DNA of 37,988 bases from Caldifarciminota bacterium (GCA_015490555.1 WFXO01000032.1:1-37988); one strand, 5' to 3'; positions 22,044 through 29,717 are shown, counted from the first letter of the stretch. The notes: generated by a model not told the origin, from the letters alone. Made by a program: numbers and translations.

Positions 22044-22664
22044 ATGAAGGCGCTGACCCCAAGACAAAAAGAAATCCTGGGCTTCATCGAACGGTACCTT
22101 CGTTCACGGAATGTTCCCCCTACACTCCGGGAAATCGCTGATTTCCTCGGCCTCCGCCATCCTTCGACCGTGTATCGCCATCTTCAAAGGATTGCGAAAA
22201 AGGGATATCTCATCCTCAAAGGCGGTCGGCGAGGCTGGATCCTTGTCAAACCCTTCCGGGGAGGCGTCCGGATCCCTCTGTATCGAGACCTTCCGTTACC
22301 TCCGAAAGGCCCCTTTTTCGGACCTGCCCAGGAATGGATCGATCTTCCTGAGTGGATGATTTCAGACACCGAGACACCCGATCATCTCTTTGCGTTACGT
22401 TGGGGAGAGCCTTCTTCTCAAACGTCCCCTCTGCAACAAGGCGACGTGCTCATCGTTCAAGCACAAGATGAACTCCCGTCTCCAGAGAGTTGGGTTCTCT
22501 TGTATCTTCCAGAGAAGGGATTGGTCATCAGGCAATTCATTGCACAGCGACCTGAAGGATGGGAAGTCTTGCCGATTCCTCCGACCTCCGTGACATCATC
22601 AGAACTTCTCCCCTCTCCGATCTTCTTGGGGCGAGTCCTCTGTATCCTCCGCTTCCCTGCTTAA
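22044..22664 (+). CDS. LexA-like repressor, apparently without self-cleavage residues
   Basis: 206 aa, close to LexA length. The DNA-binding domain is clear: LTPRQKEILGFIERYLRSR, PPTLREIADFLGL, and the recognition helix STVYRHLQRIAKKGYL. The C-terminal half follows the S24/LexA layout (LFALRWGEPSS..., QGDVLIVQAQDELPS, GRVLCILRF). Where LexA has the Ala-Gly cleavage site this protein has RDLPLPPKG. The GDSM serine motif is GEPS, and the catalytic lysine of the T-V-K-R motif is isoleucine (LVIRQF). It is therefore probably a repressor that cannot cleave itself in response to RecA. The 3' end overlaps the Lon-like gene by 4 bases. Confidence 0.8.
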   Translation: MKALTPRQKEILGFIERYLRSRNVPPTLREIADFLGLRHPSTVYRHLQRIAKKGYLILKGGRRGWILVKPFRGGVRIPLYRDLPLPPKGPFFGPAQEWIDLPEWMISDTETPDHLFALRWGEPSSQTSPLQQGDVLIVQAQDELPSPESWVLLYLPEKGLVIRQFIAQRPEGWEVLPIPPTSVTSSELLPSPIFLGRVLCILRFPA

Positions 22665-23893
22665 GCCTTTTTCTTCCTGCGGGTTGTCCGCTTTTTGGAT
22701 GGTTTCGCTTTTTCCCGCTCCTTCGCCGCCTCTTTAAAGGCCTCTAACCGCTCTGCGATCCGTGCGAAGACCGATCCCTTCTCAAAGGTCCCATCCGGTT
22801 TCCGCCCTGCGGGGACCCCCGTCAGGATCTCGATCCCCTCCTCCACATGATCCACGGCATAGATATGAAACTTGCCCTCACGGACCGCTTGTACCACCTC
22901 ATCGTGAAGCATGAGGTTCTCCAGATTTCGTCGGGGGATTAGGACGCCTTGCGTCCCGGTCAATCCCTTAACTTTGCAAATCCGATAGAATCCCTCGATT
23001 TTTTCGTTGATTCCGCCGACCGGTTGAACTTCCCCTTTTTGGTTGACGGACCCCGTCACGGCGAGATCCTGTCGGATCGGCAAGCCCGAGAGAGCCGACA
23101 TCAAGGCATACAATTCAGTACTCGAGGCCGAGTCCCCTTCAATCTCACTGTAACTCTGTTCGAAGGCGATGCGGGCGGAGAGGGTAATCGGTTCCTTCTC
23201 GCCAAAGGTCTCGCTCAGATATCCGGATAGAATCAACACGCCCTTGCTGTGGATCTTCCCGCCGAGCCCTACTTCCCGTTCGATATCGAGGACCCCCTCT
23301 TTTCCACCTCCGACCGTTGCGGTAATCCGGACCGGTCGCCCAAAAGAAAAGTCTCCGAGATCTAAAACGGACAGCCCATTGACGACGCCCACCCTTTCGC
23401 CTTCTACGTCCACCAACAGGGTCCCGCGGGCAATCATTTCCTGGATCCGTTCTTCCAACAGGTTTGAACGAAATCGTTTCTCTTCAATGGCTTTGACCAC
23501 GTGTTCTGCCTGAACCATCTCGGCTCCCGCCTCTCTGGCCCAGAAATCTGCCTCTCGAAGGATGTCTACGATTTCTGAAAATTTCGTCGAGAGTTTCCGT
23601 TGATCCGAGACGATCCTGGAACTGTATTCGATCACACGGGCCATGGCTTCTGCAGAGAAAGGCAACAGGGCTTCCTTTTTCACAATCCCTGCGATGAAGG
23701 CAGTGTACTTGGCGATGTTTTCCGGCGTGCGATCCATGGTCACACCGAAGTCTGCTTTGACCTTGAAGAGTTCGCGGAAGTCCGGGTCCCACAGATAGGC
23801 CAAGTGGTACAACAAAGGGTCCCCCATCAGAATAACCTTTACCTGAAGGGGAATGGGTTCTGGCTTCAGCACCCGTGTGGTGATCAACCCCAA
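22661..23893 (-). CDS. Lon-family (AAA_32/LonB-like) protease, C-terminal part after a frameshift
   Basis: 410-aa frame holding the rest of the AAA+ module and the Lon proteolytic domain. The catalytic serine is in EGDSASSTELYALMSALSG and the catalytic lysine in GGINEKIEGFYRIC. The end is a lysine- and arginine-rich tail (KKRTTRRKKKA). Coding similarity continues upstream of the nominal start (a TTG at 23893) to about 23961 as YAYPALKKALKTGQ and IEDLGETLGLI. That is the expected continuation of the N-terminal part in another frame. There is no Shine-Dalgarno sequence here. If the frameshift is real this part may not be made on its own. Confidence 0.85.
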   Translation of the reverse strand: MGLITTRVLKPEPIPLQVKVILMGDPLLYHLAYLWDPDFRELFKVKADFGVTMDRTPENIAKYTAFIAGIVKKEALLPFSAEAMARVIEYSSRIVSDQRKLSTKFSEIVDILREADFWAREAGAEMVQAEHVVKAIEEKRFRSNLLEERIQEMIARGTLLVDVEGERVGVVNGLSVLDLGDFSFGRPVRITATVGGGKEGVLDIEREVGLGGKIHSKGVLILSGYLSETFGEKEPITLSARIAFEQSYSEIEGDSASSTELYALMSALSGLPIRQDLAVTGSVNQKGEVQPVGGINEKIEGFYRICKVKGLTGTQGVLIPRRNLENLMLHDEVVQAVREGKFHIYAVDHVEEGIEILTGVPAGRKPDGTFEKGSVFARIAERLEAFKEAAKEREKAKPSKKRTTRRKKKA

Positions 23894-23943
23894 GGTCTCA
23901 CCCAGGTCTTCGATGAGAATTTGACCGGTTTTGAGGGCCTTTT

Positions 23944-25116
23944 TCAGGGCAGGATACGCGTAGGCTGGCGAAGGAGTTCTTCCATTTCAATCACCAAGAA
24001 CCCGCCGATGGCACGATGGAGGGCCCCTGCATGGATCATGGTAAAGTCGGTATGGAGTGCCCCCATGTGGACCTCTTTTTCGATCCGCCCGACAAGGTTC
24101 ACATAATTCGGGATCGGTTCGAACACTACGGGGGCTCCCTCCGCATCACTGTGGTCCACGAGCACATTCACACGATACCGTTTTAAAGAGGTCTCGGCAG
24201 GTTGCGGGATCGGGATGGGGATAGGCAATGGAGGGGTCGGTTTTGGCTTAAAAACGTCTACATGCTCCAACATATCCTTCTGGACTTGTTCCAGATAGGC
24301 GCGAACCTCCGGCAGATCTGCATATTTCTCAAAAAGGTCTTGGAATAGGGGCTCGATCGTGTATTGGAACGCCTCCTGATCCAGTTGTTTCAATCGTTCT
24401 TGGGCTTCCCGCTCAATCTGGCGCAACTCCCGAATCAAGCCTTTAATCTCCTGATCTAACCGTTCCCGCTCCTGCTGAATCCGTTGTTTGAACTCCTGGG
24501 GAAGCGCTTCAAACTCCTCTGGACTCAACGGACGACCCTGGAGATGCGGGGTCACGACCACCCCCTTCGGTGTGAACTGGACAATGAACCCTCTGGCTTT
24601 GGCTCGCTCTTGAAATTCCTGGATCAACCGCTGGTGTCGTTCTTCAAAGGATTTCATCAGGGCGTCGCGTTCTGTTGCATAAGCTTCGGACTCGAAGAGG
24701 TTTTGCATCCGGTTCTGGATTTCCTCCACGAGATTCTCCATGTCTTTTTGGAGTTCTTTCCCTTTTCCTGCGGGAAGAGAAAGGGCCTTTGGCGCAATGG
24801 GATCTTCGAAGTTGTAAACATAGCACCAGTCATTGGGCGTTGGGAGTTGTTTCGCGATCCGCTCCAAATAGGCTTGAATCATGGTTCGTTTCCCGGTGCC
24901 CGGCGGCCCTGCCGCATAGATGTTGTATCCCGAGCCCTTGATCTGCAGGCCTAAGGTAAAGGCATGATGTGCACGTTCTTGGCCGATAAATTCGGAGAGC
25001 GGTTCGACCTCCGTACTCACCTGAATCCCAATCTCTTCCATCTCGCAGGCTTTTTTCAATTGCTGAGGATCCACACGAAATTTGGCGAGAGACTTCTCCC
25101 TTTTCTTTCGCGGCAT
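23944..25116 (-). CDS. Lon-family (AAA_32/LonB-like) protease, N-terminal part before a frameshift
   Basis: About 390 aa. It contains the N-terminal Lon-like segment (EIGIQVSTEVEPLSEFIGQERAHHAF), Walker A in AAGPPGTGKRT, and a long charged coiled-coil insertion (KQRIQQERERLDQEIKGLI and onward). It also has the proline-rich loop (TPPLPIPIPIPQP) typical of bacterial AAA_32 Lon homologues. The conserved ELL-x-P-YAW-x-ALK motif is cut: the frame reads ELLRQP, then TRILP and stop. A one-base loss near 23962 explains it, since restoring one base gives exactly 819 codons across both parts. The start at 25116 has AAAGGAGG upstream; the in-frame 25167 start has none. Confidence 0.88.
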   Translation of the reverse strand: MPRKKREKSLAKFRVDPQQLKKACEMEEIGIQVSTEVEPLSEFIGQERAHHAFTLGLQIKGSGYNIYAAGPPGTGKRTMIQAYLERIAKQLPTPNDWCYVYNFEDPIAPKALSLPAGKGKELQKDMENLVEEIQNRMQNLFESEAYATERDALMKSFEERHQRLIQEFQERAKARGFIVQFTPKGVVVTPHLQGRPLSPEEFEALPQEFKQRIQQERERLDQEIKGLIRELRQIEREAQERLKQLDQEAFQYTIEPLFQDLFEKYADLPEVRAYLEQVQKDMLEHVDVFKPKPTPPLPIPIPIPQPAETSLKRYRVNVLVDHSDAEGAPVVFEPIPNYVNLVGRIEKEVHMGALHTDFTMIHAGALHRAIGGFLVIEMEELLRQPTRILP

Positions 25117-25188
25117 CTCAAAGTCCTCCTTTCCCCTGAAAATAAAGGATTCACGCAAAAGATGCAACGGAACGGCCGCAGCAAGCCA

Positions 25189-25224: not shown

Positions 25225-25686
25225 ATGTGGTGGATACCTTGGATTGTGTGGAGCCTTGTCCCGGTCAAAGTAGAATATGTGGTCCCGGAGTGGGTCCTGG
25301 GTCAACCTGCAGTAGTCCTCAAAGACACTGTAGGCGATCAAATTTTGCCGATCTTCATCGGCTCAGCAGAGGCCAATGCCATTCAACTGGCCCTCAAGGG
25401 GATTCAGCCTGCCCGCCCCCAAACGCATGACCTCCTTCTCAAGATTTTGCGCAAGTTGCATGCAAAAGTCACCCAGGTCGTGGTCACGGATTTAGAGGAA
25501 GACATTTACTTTGCGGAGATCTATCTGGAGACACCTGACGGGCAGCGGATTATCGACGCTCGTCCATCCGATGCCATTGCGATTGCGCTCCGCGCCCAGG
25601 TTCCGATTGCCGTCGAGGAACGCGTCTTTCGAAAATATCGCGCCTCACAGCAAAAGGGCTCCTCTGAAAAGAAGTCGAACCTCTGA
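25225..25686 (+). CDS. Bifunctional nuclease family protein (DUF151)
   Basis: 153 aa. The DUF151/BFN domain is clear: VVLKDTVGDQILPIFIGSAEANAIQLAL, RPQTHDLLLKILRKL, and the C-terminal IIDARPSDAIAIALRAQVPIAV. Plant members have DNase/RNase activity; the bacterial role is not settled. Unusual for the family is a tryptophan-rich hydrophobic N-terminus (MWWIPWIVWSL), which might anchor the protein at the membrane. The start at 25225 follows from the promoter position. The gene stands alone between the divergent Lon gene and the rhodanese operon. Confidence 0.92.
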   Translation: MWWIPWIVWSLVPVKVEYVVPEWVLGQPAVVLKDTVGDQILPIFIGSAEANAIQLALKGIQPARPQTHDLLLKILRKLHAKVTQVVVTDLEEDIYFAEIYLETPDGQRIIDARPSDAIAIALRAQVPIAVEERVFRKYRASQQKGSSEKKSNL

Positions 25687-25759
25687 AAGATTCTTACAGG
25701 ACTGTCCTCCGATCTGCAGTTTACAACACCGGGCAGACCCCCTATACTTAAGTTTACCT

Positions 25760-25765
25760 TATAAT
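25760..25765 (+). promoter_or_regulatory. -10 box of rhodanese operon
   Basis: Perfect TATAAT at 25760-25765, followed by a leader of about 25-28 bases that contains GGAGGTGA ahead of the ATG at 25799. No good -35 box is seen at 17 bp. Confidence 0.5.
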
Positions 25766-25798
25766 TCAGTCAATTTCTTAAAGATGGAGGTGAAAACG

Positions 25799-26275
25799 AT
25801 GTATCGTCGATTCCAGAAGATTGCGGTCTTGGTTGTACTTCTGACGGTTGCCGGCGCTCGGGTCGGCATTGCGCAGAGTCTCGATCCCCAAACGCTTCAA
25901 ACTTGGATCGCAGAACGTGATTCCGGGAAACGGCATTTTATCTTAGTCGATGTCCGCTCTGCCTATGAGCATCAACAAGGGGTCATCCCTGGAACCGACA
26001 CACTCATTCCTTATAGCGAGTTACCCAAACGTCACCAAGAACTCGGGGTAGACCCGAAGAAAGATACCGTCGTTCTTTACTGTCGAACCGGCCATCGAGC
26101 AGGCATTGGCCAACGGATCCTTTTAGATCTCGGGTACAAATACGTCTTTAATGGGCTCGGGATCATGCAGTGGACTTCTGCTGGATACCCTCTTATCTCT
26201 CCACAAGAAAACAATAAAGAGAAGCCCCAGAAAGCCACCCACATGCAAAGGATGGACGACCAGAAAATGGAGTAA
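25799..26275 (+). CDS. Exported rhodanese-domain protein
   Basis: 158 aa. The signal peptide (KIAVLVVLLTVAGARVGIAQS) points to the periplasm. The single rhodanese domain has ILVDVRSAYEHQQGVIPGT and the active-site loop YCRTGHRAG with the persulfide-forming cysteine. It probably carries or transfers sulfane sulfur. The start has GGAGGTGA at a good distance. First gene of a six-gene plus-strand operon. The domain pairs with the DUF2892 membrane protein three genes downstream; in E. coli YgaP these two domains are fused in one protein. Confidence 0.92.
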   Translation: MYRRFQKIAVLVVLLTVAGARVGIAQSLDPQTLQTWIAERDSGKRHFILVDVRSAYEHQQGVIPGTDTLIPYSELPKRHQELGVDPKKDTVVLYCRTGHRAGIGQRILLDLGYKYVFNGLGIMQWTSAGYPLISPQENNKEKPQKATHMQRMDDQKME

Positions 26276-26282
26276 GGGAACA

Positions 26283-26696
26283 ATGAGCAGCCTGATGCTC
26301 TTATTCATTTTGGTGGGGGTGGTCTTCGTGGTCATTGTTGGCCTCCGAGTCCTGGCCCAGTACAAGATCTCTCAGATGAGTGGGGTTTCGGTCCCTTCGC
26401 AATGGGTTCGGCGGTGGCCGGACCCTGTATTGGTTTTTATCACGGCGCCCGGTTGTCGCGCCTGTGAAACAGAACGACCCAAGGTTTCTAAAATTCAAGC
26501 ATGGGTTCCCGTCCGGGAGGTTTCTGTTGCGGACGCACCCGATTTGATCCAGGCTTTGAATCTCATCGCTACGCCTACCTGGATCCGGGTGGAAAACGGG
26601 GTTGTCCAGCGCGCTTGGGTAGGCCGACTGCCCATCGCGCGTCTGAAACAGTGGGTGCAACATCGGCAGCCTCAGGAGGTGTCCCGTGAACGATAG
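26283..26696 (+). CDS. Membrane-anchored thioredoxin-like protein
   Basis: 137 aa. An N-terminal membrane helix (LMLLFILVGVVFVVIVGLRVL) anchors a thioredoxin-fold domain. The redox motif is CRAC in FITAPGCRACETERPKV, and the cis-proline loop is IATPTWIRVENG. It probably works as a thiol-disulfide reductase in the periplasm. It lies 7 bases after the rhodanese gene and overlaps the next gene by 11 bases. It is shorter than standard thioredoxin domains with anchors, and its partner is unknown. Confidence 0.85.
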   Translation: MSSLMLLFILVGVVFVVIVGLRVLAQYKISQMSGVSVPSQWVRRWPDPVLVFITAPGCRACETERPKVSKIQAWVPVREVSVADAPDLIQALNLIATPTWIRVENGVVQRAWVGRLPIARLKQWVQHRQPQEVSRER

Positions 26697-27297
26697 AACC
26701 CAGGCGATGATCTTTAGGATCCTTGGCATCTTATGGGCCACGGGCCTGTTGGGGCTCTGGGCGGAATCTCCAAGGCCCGCGCGCAGTTCTCTCCAGATCG
26801 CGAGGGAGGCTACAAAAGAACTCCTGGACTCTCTAAAAACCCATCTCGTCCAGGAACTCCAGGCTGGGGGCCCCGCGAAGGCAATTGAGGTATGTTCCAG
26901 TCTCGGCCAGAAAATCCCCCAGACTCTGATGAGCCGGTACGGCATTCTGATAAAACGAACCTCCCTGAAAGTTCGGAATCCTCGAAATGCTCCCACCCCG
27001 GATGAAAAAGCGTTGCTTCAGACGTTGGAGACCCTCGCCAAGAAGGATTCCGCCCCCGATGAATGGGTTGACACGGTGACCCTCCAAGGGAGACCCGTGT
27101 TCCGGTATGCAAAACCCTTATATGTCCAGGGACTTTGTTTGGTGTGCCACGGGCCAACGGAGACGTTATCCCCCGAGGTCCGCAAAATTTTGGATGAAAA
27201 TTACCCACAAGACCGGGCCCGAGGGTACCATGTTGGTGACTTCCGTGGTATGGTAATCGTGAAAATTCCTCTTCAAGAACAAGGAGGTGAGCCATGA
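26686..27297 (+). CDS. DUF3365 (Tll0287-like) haem-binding protein
   Basis: 203 aa from a GTG start. It has an N-terminal membrane or signal segment (MIFRILGILWATGLLGLW) and a Tll0287-like sensor domain. Family segments are AIEVCSSLGQKIPQ, IKRTSLKVRNPRNAPTPDEKA and PLYVQGLCLVCHG. CLVCH is a c-type haem motif. Members bind haem in the periplasm and are thought to sense redox state or gases; enzymatic activity is not established. It overlaps the thioredoxin-like gene by 11 bases and the DUF2892 gene by 4 bases (ATGA). Confidence 0.88.
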   Translation: MNDRTQAMIFRILGILWATGLLGLWAESPRPARSSLQIAREATKELLDSLKTHLVQELQAGGPAKAIEVCSSLGQKIPQTLMSRYGILIKRTSLKVRNPRNAPTPDEKALLQTLETLAKKDSAPDEWVDTVTLQGRPVFRYAKPLYVQGLCLVCHGPTETLSPEVRKILDENYPQDRARGYHVGDFRGMVIVKIPLQEQGGEP

Positions 27298-27491
27298 AGA
27301 AGAATGTGGGCAGTGTGGACCAATGGATCCGGTGGATCATCGGGATCGTCCTGATCCTGTGGGGCGTGTTCGGGCTCACCGGTGCTGGGAAGTGGGTCGC
27401 AATCATCATCGGTCTGATCCCCATCATCACGGCCTTGCTCGGCTGGTGTCCTCTATACCAACTGATCGGCGTTTCCACCAAAAAGGAATAG
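27294..27491 (+). CDS. DUF2892 (YgaP-type) small membrane protein
   Basis: 65 aa. The sequence MKKNVGSVDQWIRWIIGI opens with the family pattern (N-V-G-x-D-x-x-x-R). Two membrane helices follow (IVLILWGVFGLTG and WVAIIIGLIPIITALLGWCP), with a conserved cysteine in GWCPLYQLIG. In YgaP this domain is the membrane part of a rhodanese. Here the rhodanese is a separate protein in the same operon. Confidence 0.9.
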   Translation: MKKNVGSVDQWIRWIIGIVLILWGVFGLTGAGKWVAIIIGLIPIITALLGWCPLYQLIGVSTKKE

Positions 27492-27493
27492 AG

Positions 27494-28087
27494 ATGACCC
27501 ACAAGTACGACCCGGGGGCAGCAGACCGGCTTCTTCGACCGGAACGTGCCGAGGAAGAACGCCCCCGGGTCCTCCTGAAAACTCTCGACCTTCAAGACGG
27601 ACAAATTGTGCTGGATTTGGGATGTGGCCCCGGCTTCTACTTGCCCTATCTTGCGGAACAGGTCGCCCCAACCGGCTGGGTTGTGGGGGCCGATCTCCAA
27701 AAAGAGATGCTCACGATCGCTCAACAGCATCTCAAGGCTTCCGGGATTCACAACGTCTGTCTTGTGCAGGTGGGGGAAGCCTCTTTACCGTTTCCAGATC
27801 ACACATTTGACGTTGTCACCCTGGCTCATACCCTACATGAACTTCATCACCCGGTGGAAAGTTTAAAAGAGGTGCGACGGGTTTTGGCTCCCCAGGGGAT
27901 CTTTTGGATCTGGGACTGGGACCGGGCGTACTCGGGCCCTCCGGGTCCACCCCAGGAGGAACGTCTCTCGCCCGAAGAGGCCAAACAACTCCTGCTGGAA
28001 GCCGGCTTTCACGTAGAAATTCACTCCTCGCCGCTCCCGGCCAGGTTTTTCATTCGCGCGGTTCCCAAGAAACCCAAGAAACCCTAA
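27494..28087 (+). CDS. Class I SAM-dependent methyltransferase
   Basis: 197 aa, Rossmann-type methyltransferase of the UbiE/Methyltransf_11 kind. Motif I is VLDLGCGPGFYLPYL and the acidic residue of motif II is in VVGADLQKEML. The FDVVTLAHTLHEL segment is motif IV. The cytoplasmic substrate is not evident. The start lies 2 bases after the DUF2892 stop. The start and end fit the family without extra domains. Its tail (VPKKPKKP) is lysine rich. Confidence 0.88.
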   Translation: MTHKYDPGAADRLLRPERAEEERPRVLLKTLDLQDGQIVLDLGCGPGFYLPYLAEQVAPTGWVVGADLQKEMLTIAQQHLKASGIHNVCLVQVGEASLPFPDHTFDVVTLAHTLHELHHPVESLKEVRRVLAPQGIFWIWDWDRAYSGPPGPPQEERLSPEEAKQLLLEAGFHVEIHSSPLPARFFIRAVPKKPKKP

Positions 28088-28098
28088 AGGAGGTCCCG

Positions 28099-28389
28099 AT
28101 GGTTGTCGCCGTCAATCGCATATTTGTGAAAAAGGAGTTTCAAAAAGAGTTTGAGTCCCGGTTCCGTGATCGGATCCGGATGGTGGAACAACAACCCGGC
28201 TGGCTACGGACCGAAATCCTCTGCCCCACCGATGGGGAAGACTATCTTGTGATGACCTGGTGGAGGTCGAAAGAGGATTTCGAGCGCTGGGTCGAGTCAG
28301 CCGCCTTCCGGAAGGCACACGCTCGTGCCACTCCCAGAGAGTGGTTTTCCAAACCCAACGAGTTCCAACTCTATACGGTTCTTGAGTAA
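28099..28389 (+). CDS. Antibiotic biosynthesis monooxygenase (ABM) domain protein, possibly haem-degrading
   Basis: 96 aa, a single ferredoxin-like ABM domain. Family features are VVAVNRIFVKKEFQKEFESRF, QPGWLRTEIL, and YLVMTWWRSKEDFERWVESAAFRKAH. The pattern resembles HmoA/IsdG-like monooxygenases, which can degrade haem, but haem use cannot be read with certainty. AAGGAGG lies before the ATG. It is the last gene of the rhodanese operon, next to two haem proteins. Confidence 0.85.
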   Translation: MVVAVNRIFVKKEFQKEFESRFRDRIRMVEQQPGWLRTEILCPTDGEDYLVMTWWRSKEDFERWVESAAFRKAHARATPREWFSKPNEFQLYTVLE

Positions 28390-28464
28390 CCCCTGGTAAT
28401 TCTACAACCGTGCTCACTCCCGACCACAAGGAATACACAAAATAGTTGAGCGAATTTCTCAGTC

Positions 28465-28493
28465 TTGATTTTCAACCTCAAATGGCATATGCT
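28465..28493 (+). promoter_or_regulatory. Promoter of cytochrome c - sod pair
   Basis: TTGATT at 28465-28470, exact 17-bp spacer, TATGCT at 28488-28493. A leader of about 23 bases with a strong AAGGAGG precedes the ATG at 28523, so this is a normal leadered start. Confidence 0.5.
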
Positions 28494-28522
28494 ATGCGAG
28501 CACATGGAAGGAGGTCTCAGAC

Positions 28523-28942
28523 ATGGTAAAGAAGTTTCTTTCTTTCGCTTTCCTTTGGTTCGTAGCCACATCGGGTTTCGCCAAAGAGAACGGCGAAGAC
28601 GCACTGATAAAACAAGGGGAAGCCTTGTTCCAGAGTAAGGGCTGTGTGGCCTGCCACACCCTTACAGACCAACGTCTGGTGGGCCCCGGATTGAGAGGCG
28701 TCTTTGACCGTTTAGAAAAAGCCGGAAAAGATGAAACGTGGTTAGCAACCTACCTCAAAAATCCCCCGGCCATGGTAGAAAAAGACCCCTACTTACAAAA
28801 ACTCCATCAGATTTACCAAGTGGTCATGCCAAACTTGGGCTTAAAAGAGAATGAAATACAAGCCCTGATCGCTTATTTAAAGGTGGCGACACAACCACCA
28901 AAGGCATCGCCATCGGAAACTCAAGCAACACAAAAAGAGTAA
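28523..28942 (+). CDS. Periplasmic c-type cytochrome
   Basis: 139 aa. The signal peptide is [19 protein letters not shown] single haem-binding motif, GCVACHTL, is followed by VGPGLRGVF as in class I cytochromes. The methionine ligand lies in [20 protein letters not shown]. The C-terminal tail is low in complexity ([15 protein letters not shown]). It probably shuttles electrons in the periplasm. It is followed 14 bases later by superoxide dismutase and shares its promoter and terminator. Confidence 0.93.
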
Positions 28943-28956
28943 AAAGGAGGACCAAC

Positions 28957-29583
28957 ATGGCCCATACATTACCTGAACTCCCGTATCCTGTGGATGCGTT
29001 GGAGCCATACATTGATGCCCGAACCATGGAAATCCATCATGGGAAGCACCATGCCGGGTATGTGAATAAACTAAACGCCGCGCTGTCGAAGTACCCCTCC
29101 CTGGAATCTGTACCTTTGGAAGAACTCCTCCAAAACCTGGAATCGGTCCCCGAAGACATTCGGACCGCAGTCCGCAACAACGGCGGCGGCCATTTCAACC
29201 ATAGCCTCTTCTGGACAGTGATGTCCCCACGCGGAGGTGGGAAACCCACAGGAGCCCTGGCGGAGGCCATCGAGCATGCCTTCGGTTCCTTCGAGACCTT
29301 CCAGCACGCCTTTTCAGAGGCCGCGTCGACCCGCTTCGGCAGTGGCTGGGCCTGGCTCGCCGTGGATCACTTCGGCAAACTCCGCGTCTTTTCCACTCCG
29401 AACCAAGACAACCCCGTCATGGTGGGGATGATCCCTATCCTCGGTCTCGATGTCTGGGAACACGCCTACTACCTCAAATACCAGAACCGCCGTGCGGAGT
29501 ACATCGAAAATTGGTGGCGGATCGTGAATTGGGACCAGGTGGCACAAAACTATCAGAAAGCCCTGGAGTCCTTAAAACGCTAA
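28957..29583 (+). CDS. sodA: Superoxide dismutase (Fe/Mn family, Mn-like)
   Basis: Converts superoxide to hydrogen peroxide and oxygen. It has 208 aa. The metal ligands expected in the family are visible: H27 in MEIHHGKHH, the His of NHSLFW, and the Asp and His of [23 protein letters not shown] carries the active-site glutamine at the position typical of Mn enzymes (Fe types usually place it elsewhere). No signal peptide, so it is cytoplasmic. GGAGG lies before the ATG. A strong terminator follows. Iron use or dual-metal use cannot be excluded. Confidence 0.95.
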
Positions 29584-29605
29584 CCCTCCTTGCCTGTGCC
29601 CAAAG

Positions 29606-29647
29606 GGCCTACCCATCGAGCCAATGCTCATGGGTAGGCCTCGTTTT
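29606..29647 (+). terminator. Intrinsic terminator after sod
   Basis: An 11-bp perfect stem (GGCCTACCCAT at 29606-29616 with ATGGGTAGGCC at 29630-29640), a 13-base loop and a T run (TCGTTTTT, 29641-29648). It is the only textbook rho-independent terminator seen in the window. Confidence 0.93.
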
Positions 29648-29676
29648 TAAACTTTCGGGAAATTTACTCAACCCTG

Positions 29677-29682
29677 TATAAT
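29677..29682 (+). promoter_or_regulatory. -10 box of 2-oxoacid dehydrogenase operon
   Basis: Perfect TATAAT at 29677-29682, 30 bases downstream of the sod terminator. The -35 match is weak. The leader is about 29 bases and carries AAGGAGGT (29707-29714) before the ATG at 29718. Confidence 0.55.
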
Positions 29683-29717
29683 TGGTTCTGTTGTACGGAA
29701 AATTGAAGGAGGTCCGT

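Follow-up and report, generated by a model that had tools for sequence, protein, structure and literature searches.

A conserved rhodanese, thioredoxin, haem protein and DUF2892 gene cassette in WOR-3 bacteria, possibly a sulfane-sulfur module of the inner membrane

A six-gene cassette and its conservation

The stretch of DNA analysed here, 37,988 nucleotides in length and referred to as the window (Caldifarciminota bacterium, GCA_015490555.1 WFXO01000032.1:1-37988), corresponds to contig C32 in an assembly of 2.16 Mb and 94% completeness (genome label G000) from a little-studied bacterium of candidate division WOR-3. A cassette of six genes, all on the plus strand, occupies positions 25799-28389. 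Gene coordinates and Pfam families identify, in order, a rhodanese, a thioredoxin, a DUF3365 haem protein, a DUF2892 membrane protein, a methyltransferase and an ABM monooxygenase (Table 1). This agrees with an initial annotation of the window, which had named the six genes at this position and strand and had placed the CRAC thioredoxin and the CLVCH-containing DUF3365 protein between the rhodanese and DUF2892, with the methyltransferase and ABM genes following.

Table 1. Genes of the cassette and the promoter-like site upstream
Feature	Position	Strand	Details
Promoter-like site	25720..25748	+	5' of rhodanese gene; sole consensus match in 25600-29700
Single-domain exported rhodanese (export predicted), 158 aa	25799..26275	+	Active-site Cys95 in CRTGHR; PF00581 1.3e-12
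Thioredoxin with single N-terminal transmembrane helix	26283..26696	+	CRAC = C58/C61; domain predicted cytoplasmic
DUF3365/Tll0287-like (sCache_heme) haem-c protein	26686..27297	+	Start GTG 26686 or ATG 26707; PF11845 1.7e-24
DUF2892/YgaP-like_TM two-helix membrane protein	27294..27491	+	PF11127 9.7e-23; single Cys52 in CPLY
UbiE-like S-adenosylmethionine-dependent methyltransferase	27494..28087	+	PF08241 (Methyltransf_11) 7.9e-23
ABM monooxygenase, IsdG/HmoB-like group	28099..28389	+	PF03992 5e-21; among the three cassettes, in this genome only

The spacing between the genes is 7, -11, -4, 2 and 11 nt, followed by 133 nt before the next gene. Given intervals of -11 to +11 nt, the six genes are probably a single operon ending at 28389, and the transcription unit most likely spans the rhodanese to ABM genes. 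The promoter-like site is weak evidence, as one match was observed where 2.1 are expected by chance.

We compared the cassette with 31 close relatives and 147 genomes of the phylum. Two genomes of the same class but another family, the WOR-3 metagenome-assembled genomes (MAGs) S141_80 (G010, locus L051) and S144 (G005, locus L056), encode rhodanese, SCO1, thioredoxin, DUF3365, DUF2892, a methyltransferase (G005 only) and DUF1858, in this order. The proteins are 32-72% identical to those of the window (rhodanese 43-44%; methyltransferase of G005, at the same position in the cassette, 44%), and the flanking genes differ among the three genomes. Because the order is kept in two genomes of another family and in different surroundings, it is not chance. 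By the initial annotation's own criterion, its reading would have fallen had no relative kept the order; the recurrence in G005 and G010 shows that this is not the case. The cassette is known from these three draft MAGs (77-94% complete), and its thioredoxin is equally restricted, scoring >200 bits in 3/147 phylum genomes, with every other match at <=33 bits.

Parts of the cassette recur more widely. Bare rhodanese-DUF2892 pairs, with a gap of -4 to +9 nt, occur in eight further genomes of one WOR-3-related family, and their rhodaneses match the cassette rhodanese model with E values of 1e-32 to 1e-38. At these loci (L164, L165, L169, L172-L175 and L179) most DUF2892 proteins have extra cysteines. 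A UbiE-like methyltransferase gene follows DUF2892 in G083 and G089, and G013 (L170 824-2334) encodes consecutively a thioredoxin-fold protein, DUF2892, a CoA-binding-type protein and DUF1858. Genes for DUF3365 were identified in nine of the 31 close relatives, in six of them alone, without cassette genes. DUF2892 is common, being found in 46/147 phylum genomes and 10/14 control genomes. A scan of named genomes with DUF3365 (54 loci) found no further full cassette, although the search patterns were narrow and absence elsewhere is unproven.

We considered whether the cassette consists of unrelated genes for oxidative or sulfur stress, loosely co-regulated, that happen to have remained side by side in a small lineage. 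It occurs in only three genomes from two families, and SCO1, DUF1858, the methyltransferase and the ABM protein are optional members, as would be expected of such a set. However, the order, with overlapping genes, is kept in different genomic surroundings, gene pairs recur in other genomes, and a sister genome (G001) lacks both the cassette and cbb3 oxidase. We therefore regard a chance set as unlikely.

In the open-licence literature of PubMed Central we found no cassette of this composition, no paper linking DUF2892, rhodanese and sulfide, and for DUF3365 with rhodanese nothing but an unrelated genome paper. What is new is the combination; the parts themselves are known, so that the cassette is a variant of known parts.

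Predicted products and their sidedness

The sides of the membrane on which the cassette proteins act were predicted from the charge pattern alone. The thioredoxin has its transmembrane helix at residues 3-21. No charged residue precedes the helix in any of the three orthologues, and the 15 residues that follow carry +2, +5 and +5; the positive-inside rule accordingly predicts a cytoplasmic thioredoxin domain in all three. The short N-terminus is fixed by the neighbouring gene in G005 and G010, where the start codon of the thioredoxin gene and the stop codon of SCO1 overlap (ATGA). The Pfam Thioredoxin match is weak (1.8e-3, under the cut-off); the AlphaFold2 model (pLDDT 83) has a canonical thioredoxin fold, and its structure matches are TrxA-type. 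A periplasmic thioredoxin was considered but dropped in view of the charge pattern together with this fold. The transfer of persulfide from the rhodanese to the thioredoxin in the periplasm, proposed in the initial annotation, is consequently unlikely.

The rhodanese is predicted to be exported, as a signal-peptide-like segment can be recognized at the N-terminus of all three cassette rhodaneses. Its closest solved structures include PspE (2jtq, 2e-7) and 1qxn, and it shares with PspE-type proteins a single domain with the active-site cysteine in a short loop. Both termini of the DUF2892 protein are positively charged and are therefore expected to be inside. Its lone cysteine is placed where the second helix ends on the inner side, and a cysteine in the form C-x-x-[YW] is present in all 29 of the DUF2892 proteins inspected from the phylum. 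No solved structure matching the DUF2892 profile was found. Overall, the rhodanese, the haem protein and, where present, SCO1 are predicted to form an outer half of the system, and the thioredoxin, methyltransferase and DUF1858 an inner half.

The haem protein belongs to the Tll0287-like DUF3365 family, described in 2026 as sCache_heme (PMC12889525). An AlphaFold2 model (pLDDT 85) finds Tll0287 itself as its best Foldseek match (5b82, E 8.9e-10, probability 1.00), a Cache-type fold. CLVCH corresponds to C151-L-V-C154-H155, and the CXXCH motif is invariant in seven members from the class. When aligned with Tll0287, Cys70 falls at the axial-ligand position and is also invariant in the class. Thus, the Cys and His ligand positions are kept in this exported haem-c protein, for which Cys ligation is predicted. 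Cytochrome c assembly and maturation proteins, which the haem protein needs, are encoded in all three cassette genomes.

The ligands bear on function. Stand-alone sCache_heme members are redox-type proteins with Cys/His ligation, whereas members with an attached signalling module sense NO (PMC12889525). In SoxA-family proteins with Cys-ligated c haems, a sulfur adduct forms on the ligand cysteine, and this ligand is catalytic in TsdA and SoxA (PMC4423706). Similar sulfur chemistry may extend to the DUF3365 protein; this we infer across unrelated folds.

The methyltransferase and ABM genes complete the cassette. The ABM protein matches Thermus TT1380 (6.5e-22) and HmoB (3.5e-12), the latter aligning over the Asn, Trp and His stretches; its match to the HmuQ haem-oxygenase model (1.7e-14, 53.9 bits) is under the cut-off of 130. 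Beginning 133 nt past the cassette are genes for a small cytochrome c and a superoxide dismutase (28523-29583, plus strand, 14 nt between them), which are probably a separate transcription unit.

An alternative explanation is a unit for sensing redox state or gas (NO, O2), in which the DUF3365 haem would sense and signal, with the ABM protein and superoxide dismutase as stress outputs. Such a role is consistent with the NO binding of signalling-fused DUF3365 domains (PMC12889525), with the haem-type ABM protein and with the proximity of cytochrome c and superoxide dismutase. The cassette DUF3365 protein, however, is stand-alone, being neither fused to nor flanked by a kinase, HAMP or output domain. 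The stand-alone Cys/His-ligated member that has been studied binds neither NO nor O2 strongly (PMC12889525). Moreover, the other two cassettes lack the ABM gene, and the cytochrome c and superoxide dismutase genes probably lie outside the operon. Gas sensing, as suggested by the initial annotation, is thus weakly supported; we consider it very unlikely and dropped it as first choice, given the Cys/His type of the haem protein.

On the minus strand, two adjacent open reading frames (23944-25167 and 22661-23893) resemble two halves of one Lon-like ATP-dependent protease. Since together they read as one protein, a frameshift near 23900, natural or introduced by assembly, may have split the gene.

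Respiratory and sulfur context

The occurrence of the cassette follows that of cbb3 oxidase. Strong matches to CcoO (FixO/CcoO, E < 1e-30) were found in 3/147 phylum genomes, which are exactly the three with the cassette thioredoxin, and each of these has CcoN-CcoO gene pairs. The probability of this overlap, were the two independent, is 2e-6, a value that overstates the case because the three genomes represent only two families. Neither the cassette thioredoxin nor a strong CcoO is present in the sister genome G001, whose completeness is rated at 100%. Across the 31 close relatives, genomes with DUF3365 differ from the others in COX1 (9/9 vs 5/22; Fisher 1e-4), sulfide:quinone reductase (SQR)-like proteins (8/9 vs 3/22; Fisher 2e-4) and SCO1 (8/9 vs 0/22; Fisher 1e-6), none of these values being corrected for kinship.

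The main rival explanation draws on this pattern and holds that the cassette serves assembly or maintenance of the cbb3 oxidase through handling of thiols, copper and haem. The SCO1-thioredoxin pair would resemble ScoI-TlpA, the haem protein would be an electron carrier, and the rhodanese and DUF2892 would be secondary. The exact co-occurrence of cassette and cbb3 in the 147 genomes fits this explanation, as do the SCO1 genes within the cassettes of G005 and G010 and the tracking of SCO1 by DUF3365 in the relatives. Yet the window's genome has cbb3 and, throughout the assembly, no SCO1 was found. The ccoNO genes are on other contigs than the cassette, and the bare rhodanese-DUF2892 pairs are found in genomes that lack a strong CcoO. 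TlpA acts outside the membrane, whereas a cytoplasmic orientation is predicted for the cassette thioredoxin, which resembles TrxA-type structures. On balance, we assign this explanation a low probability.

The host genome also encodes a type III SQR (NF049943, 664.7 bits; curated cut-off 525). Genes for this enzyme, an unassigned 247-aa protein, DsrC and a DsrE-like protein are consecutive on contig C70 (L162 5423-8318). The SQR matches an NCBI selenoprotein-subtype model, and the gene has no in-frame TGA. SQR-like proteins are present in all three cassette genomes, that of G010 being 73% identical and that of G005 more distant.

In other phyla, we tallied the 141 neighbours within two genes of DUF3365, using 103 more distant genes as control. 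Rhodaneses number 5 against 2 in the control, a modest contrast that is not significant alone. The other counts are 6 for metallo-beta-lactamase fold proteins (control 2), 6 for AhpC/TSA, 4 for sulfate permeases and 3 for YgaP-like_TM proteins (control <=2 for each of the last three). The count for YgaP-like_TM stands out, given that genomes typically encode about one protein of this type. Among the lactamase-fold neighbours, one is clearly ETHE1-like (4chl, 1.8e-61). In an alphaproteobacterium (L054 5905-8705), DUF3365 adjoins a cytochrome c gene and a gene resembling sulfite dehydrogenases (SorA/SorT/SoxC group, below cut-offs).

Interpretation and comparison with known systems

The conserved order, the co-occurrence with cbb3, the SQR-like proteins and the bare rhodanese-DUF2892 pairs together support a sulfane-sulfur or thiol module tied to microaerobic sulfide oxidation. 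We put at roughly 45% the probability that the operon handles sulfane sulfur (persulfide, polysulfide, thiosulfate) as a module of the inner membrane, in a WOR-3 bacterium that oxidises sulfide and lives microaerobically. SQR products or thiosulfate would load the periplasmic rhodanese at Cys95, and the Cys-ligated haem would exchange electrons with sulfur intermediates in the manner of SoxA and TsdA. DUF2892 could aid passage of sulfane sulfur across the membrane, and a persulfide on Cys52 would be reduced by the thioredoxin at the inner face. The resulting sulfur or sulfide might pass to DsrE/DsrC or be methylated by the methyltransferase, and electrons from sulfide would end on the cbb3 oxidase. 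The periplasmic persulfide and thiol chemistry envisaged in the initial annotation stands insofar as a sulfur link is indicated by the host SQR-DsrC-DsrE genes, the rhodanese-DUF2892 pairs and the neighbours of DUF3365; the periplasmic hand-over to the thioredoxin does not stand.

Several observations weigh against a sulfane-sulfur module. Composition, order, co-occurrence and predicted sidedness were computed, whereas the transfer steps are what we infer from them. A direct hand-over from rhodanese to DUF2892 is not obvious, because the membrane is predicted to separate Cys52 from the rhodanese. In the eight bare pairs the hydrophobic N-terminus of the rhodanese is very short, and a clear signal peptide is lacking. 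SCO1 and DUF1858, present in two of the three cassettes, are missing from that of the window, and SCO1 from its whole genome. Given that the cassette is limited to three genomes in two families, the co-occurrence counts are not independent, and the rhodanese contrast near DUF3365 is modest. A search of the class for an ETHE1-type persulfide dioxygenase yielded none, the only matches being generic metallo-beta-lactamase-fold ones (best in the host 1.4e-13). The classical pathway of SQR, persulfide dioxygenase and rhodanese was rejected for this reason, although SQR is present.

A more specific version of the sulfane-sulfur module is a dedicated transmembrane import relay, with the rhodanese and Cys-ligated haem c outside, DUF2892 in the membrane and the thioredoxin inside. 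We consider it unlikely. If true, it would answer how periplasmic sulfane sulfur reaches the cytoplasm. More generally, the cassette may hand reactive sulfur across the cell membrane, and it gives a concrete, testable sulfur role to DUF2892 and to stand-alone DUF3365, for which a general redox role has been proposed so far.

A possible parallel cassette was identified in the Bacteroidetes genome UBA6661 (L103 4565-7031), which encodes consecutively a rhodanese, a thiopurine-type methyltransferase, a small membrane protein, DUF3365, DUF6132 and a thioredoxin-fold protein. It differs in gene order, its proteins are distant, and its membrane protein fails the YgaP-like_TM model. As in TlpA-ScoI, two of the three cassettes have a membrane thioredoxin beside SCO1, but the predicted orientation of the thioredoxin is opposite, and the window's genome lacks SCO1. 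The haem protein shares its fold, CXXCH motif and Cys ligand position with Tll0287 and other stand-alone sCache_heme proteins. The description of the family (PMC12889525) assigns them no sulfur role, whereas the cassette member sits among sulfur-type genes. SoxA and TsdA also carry out sulfur chemistry with a Cys/His-ligated haem c (PMC4423706, PMC9562282); their fold is unrelated, and the likeness is one of chemistry only.

PspE, which belongs to the phage-shock genes, is an exported single rhodanese domain like the cassette rhodanese, but its unit is not known to include a DUF2892, thioredoxin or haem protein. It makes periplasmic sulfane sulfur, and the route of this sulfur into the E. coli cytoplasm has been stated as unexplained (PMC10215317). 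The cassette is thus a useful test case for how sulfane sulfur passes from periplasm to cytoplasm.

A further comparison is with E. coli YgaP, in which a rhodanese is likewise found together with a two-helix membrane domain of the DUF2892/YgaP-like_TM type; thiosulfate or SCN- elicits a response in the second transmembrane helix of YgaP (PMC4730233). The initial annotation described the cassette as a split YgaP. In part this holds, as the two components are separate genes here and are coupled as a bare pair in eight genomes. The plain form of the idea was dropped because the rhodaneses differ in sidedness. YgaP is one fused protein with a cytosolic rhodanese (PMC4730233, PMC3551814), whereas the cassette has two genes and a rhodanese that is predicted to be exported, with a thioredoxin and a haem protein encoded between them.

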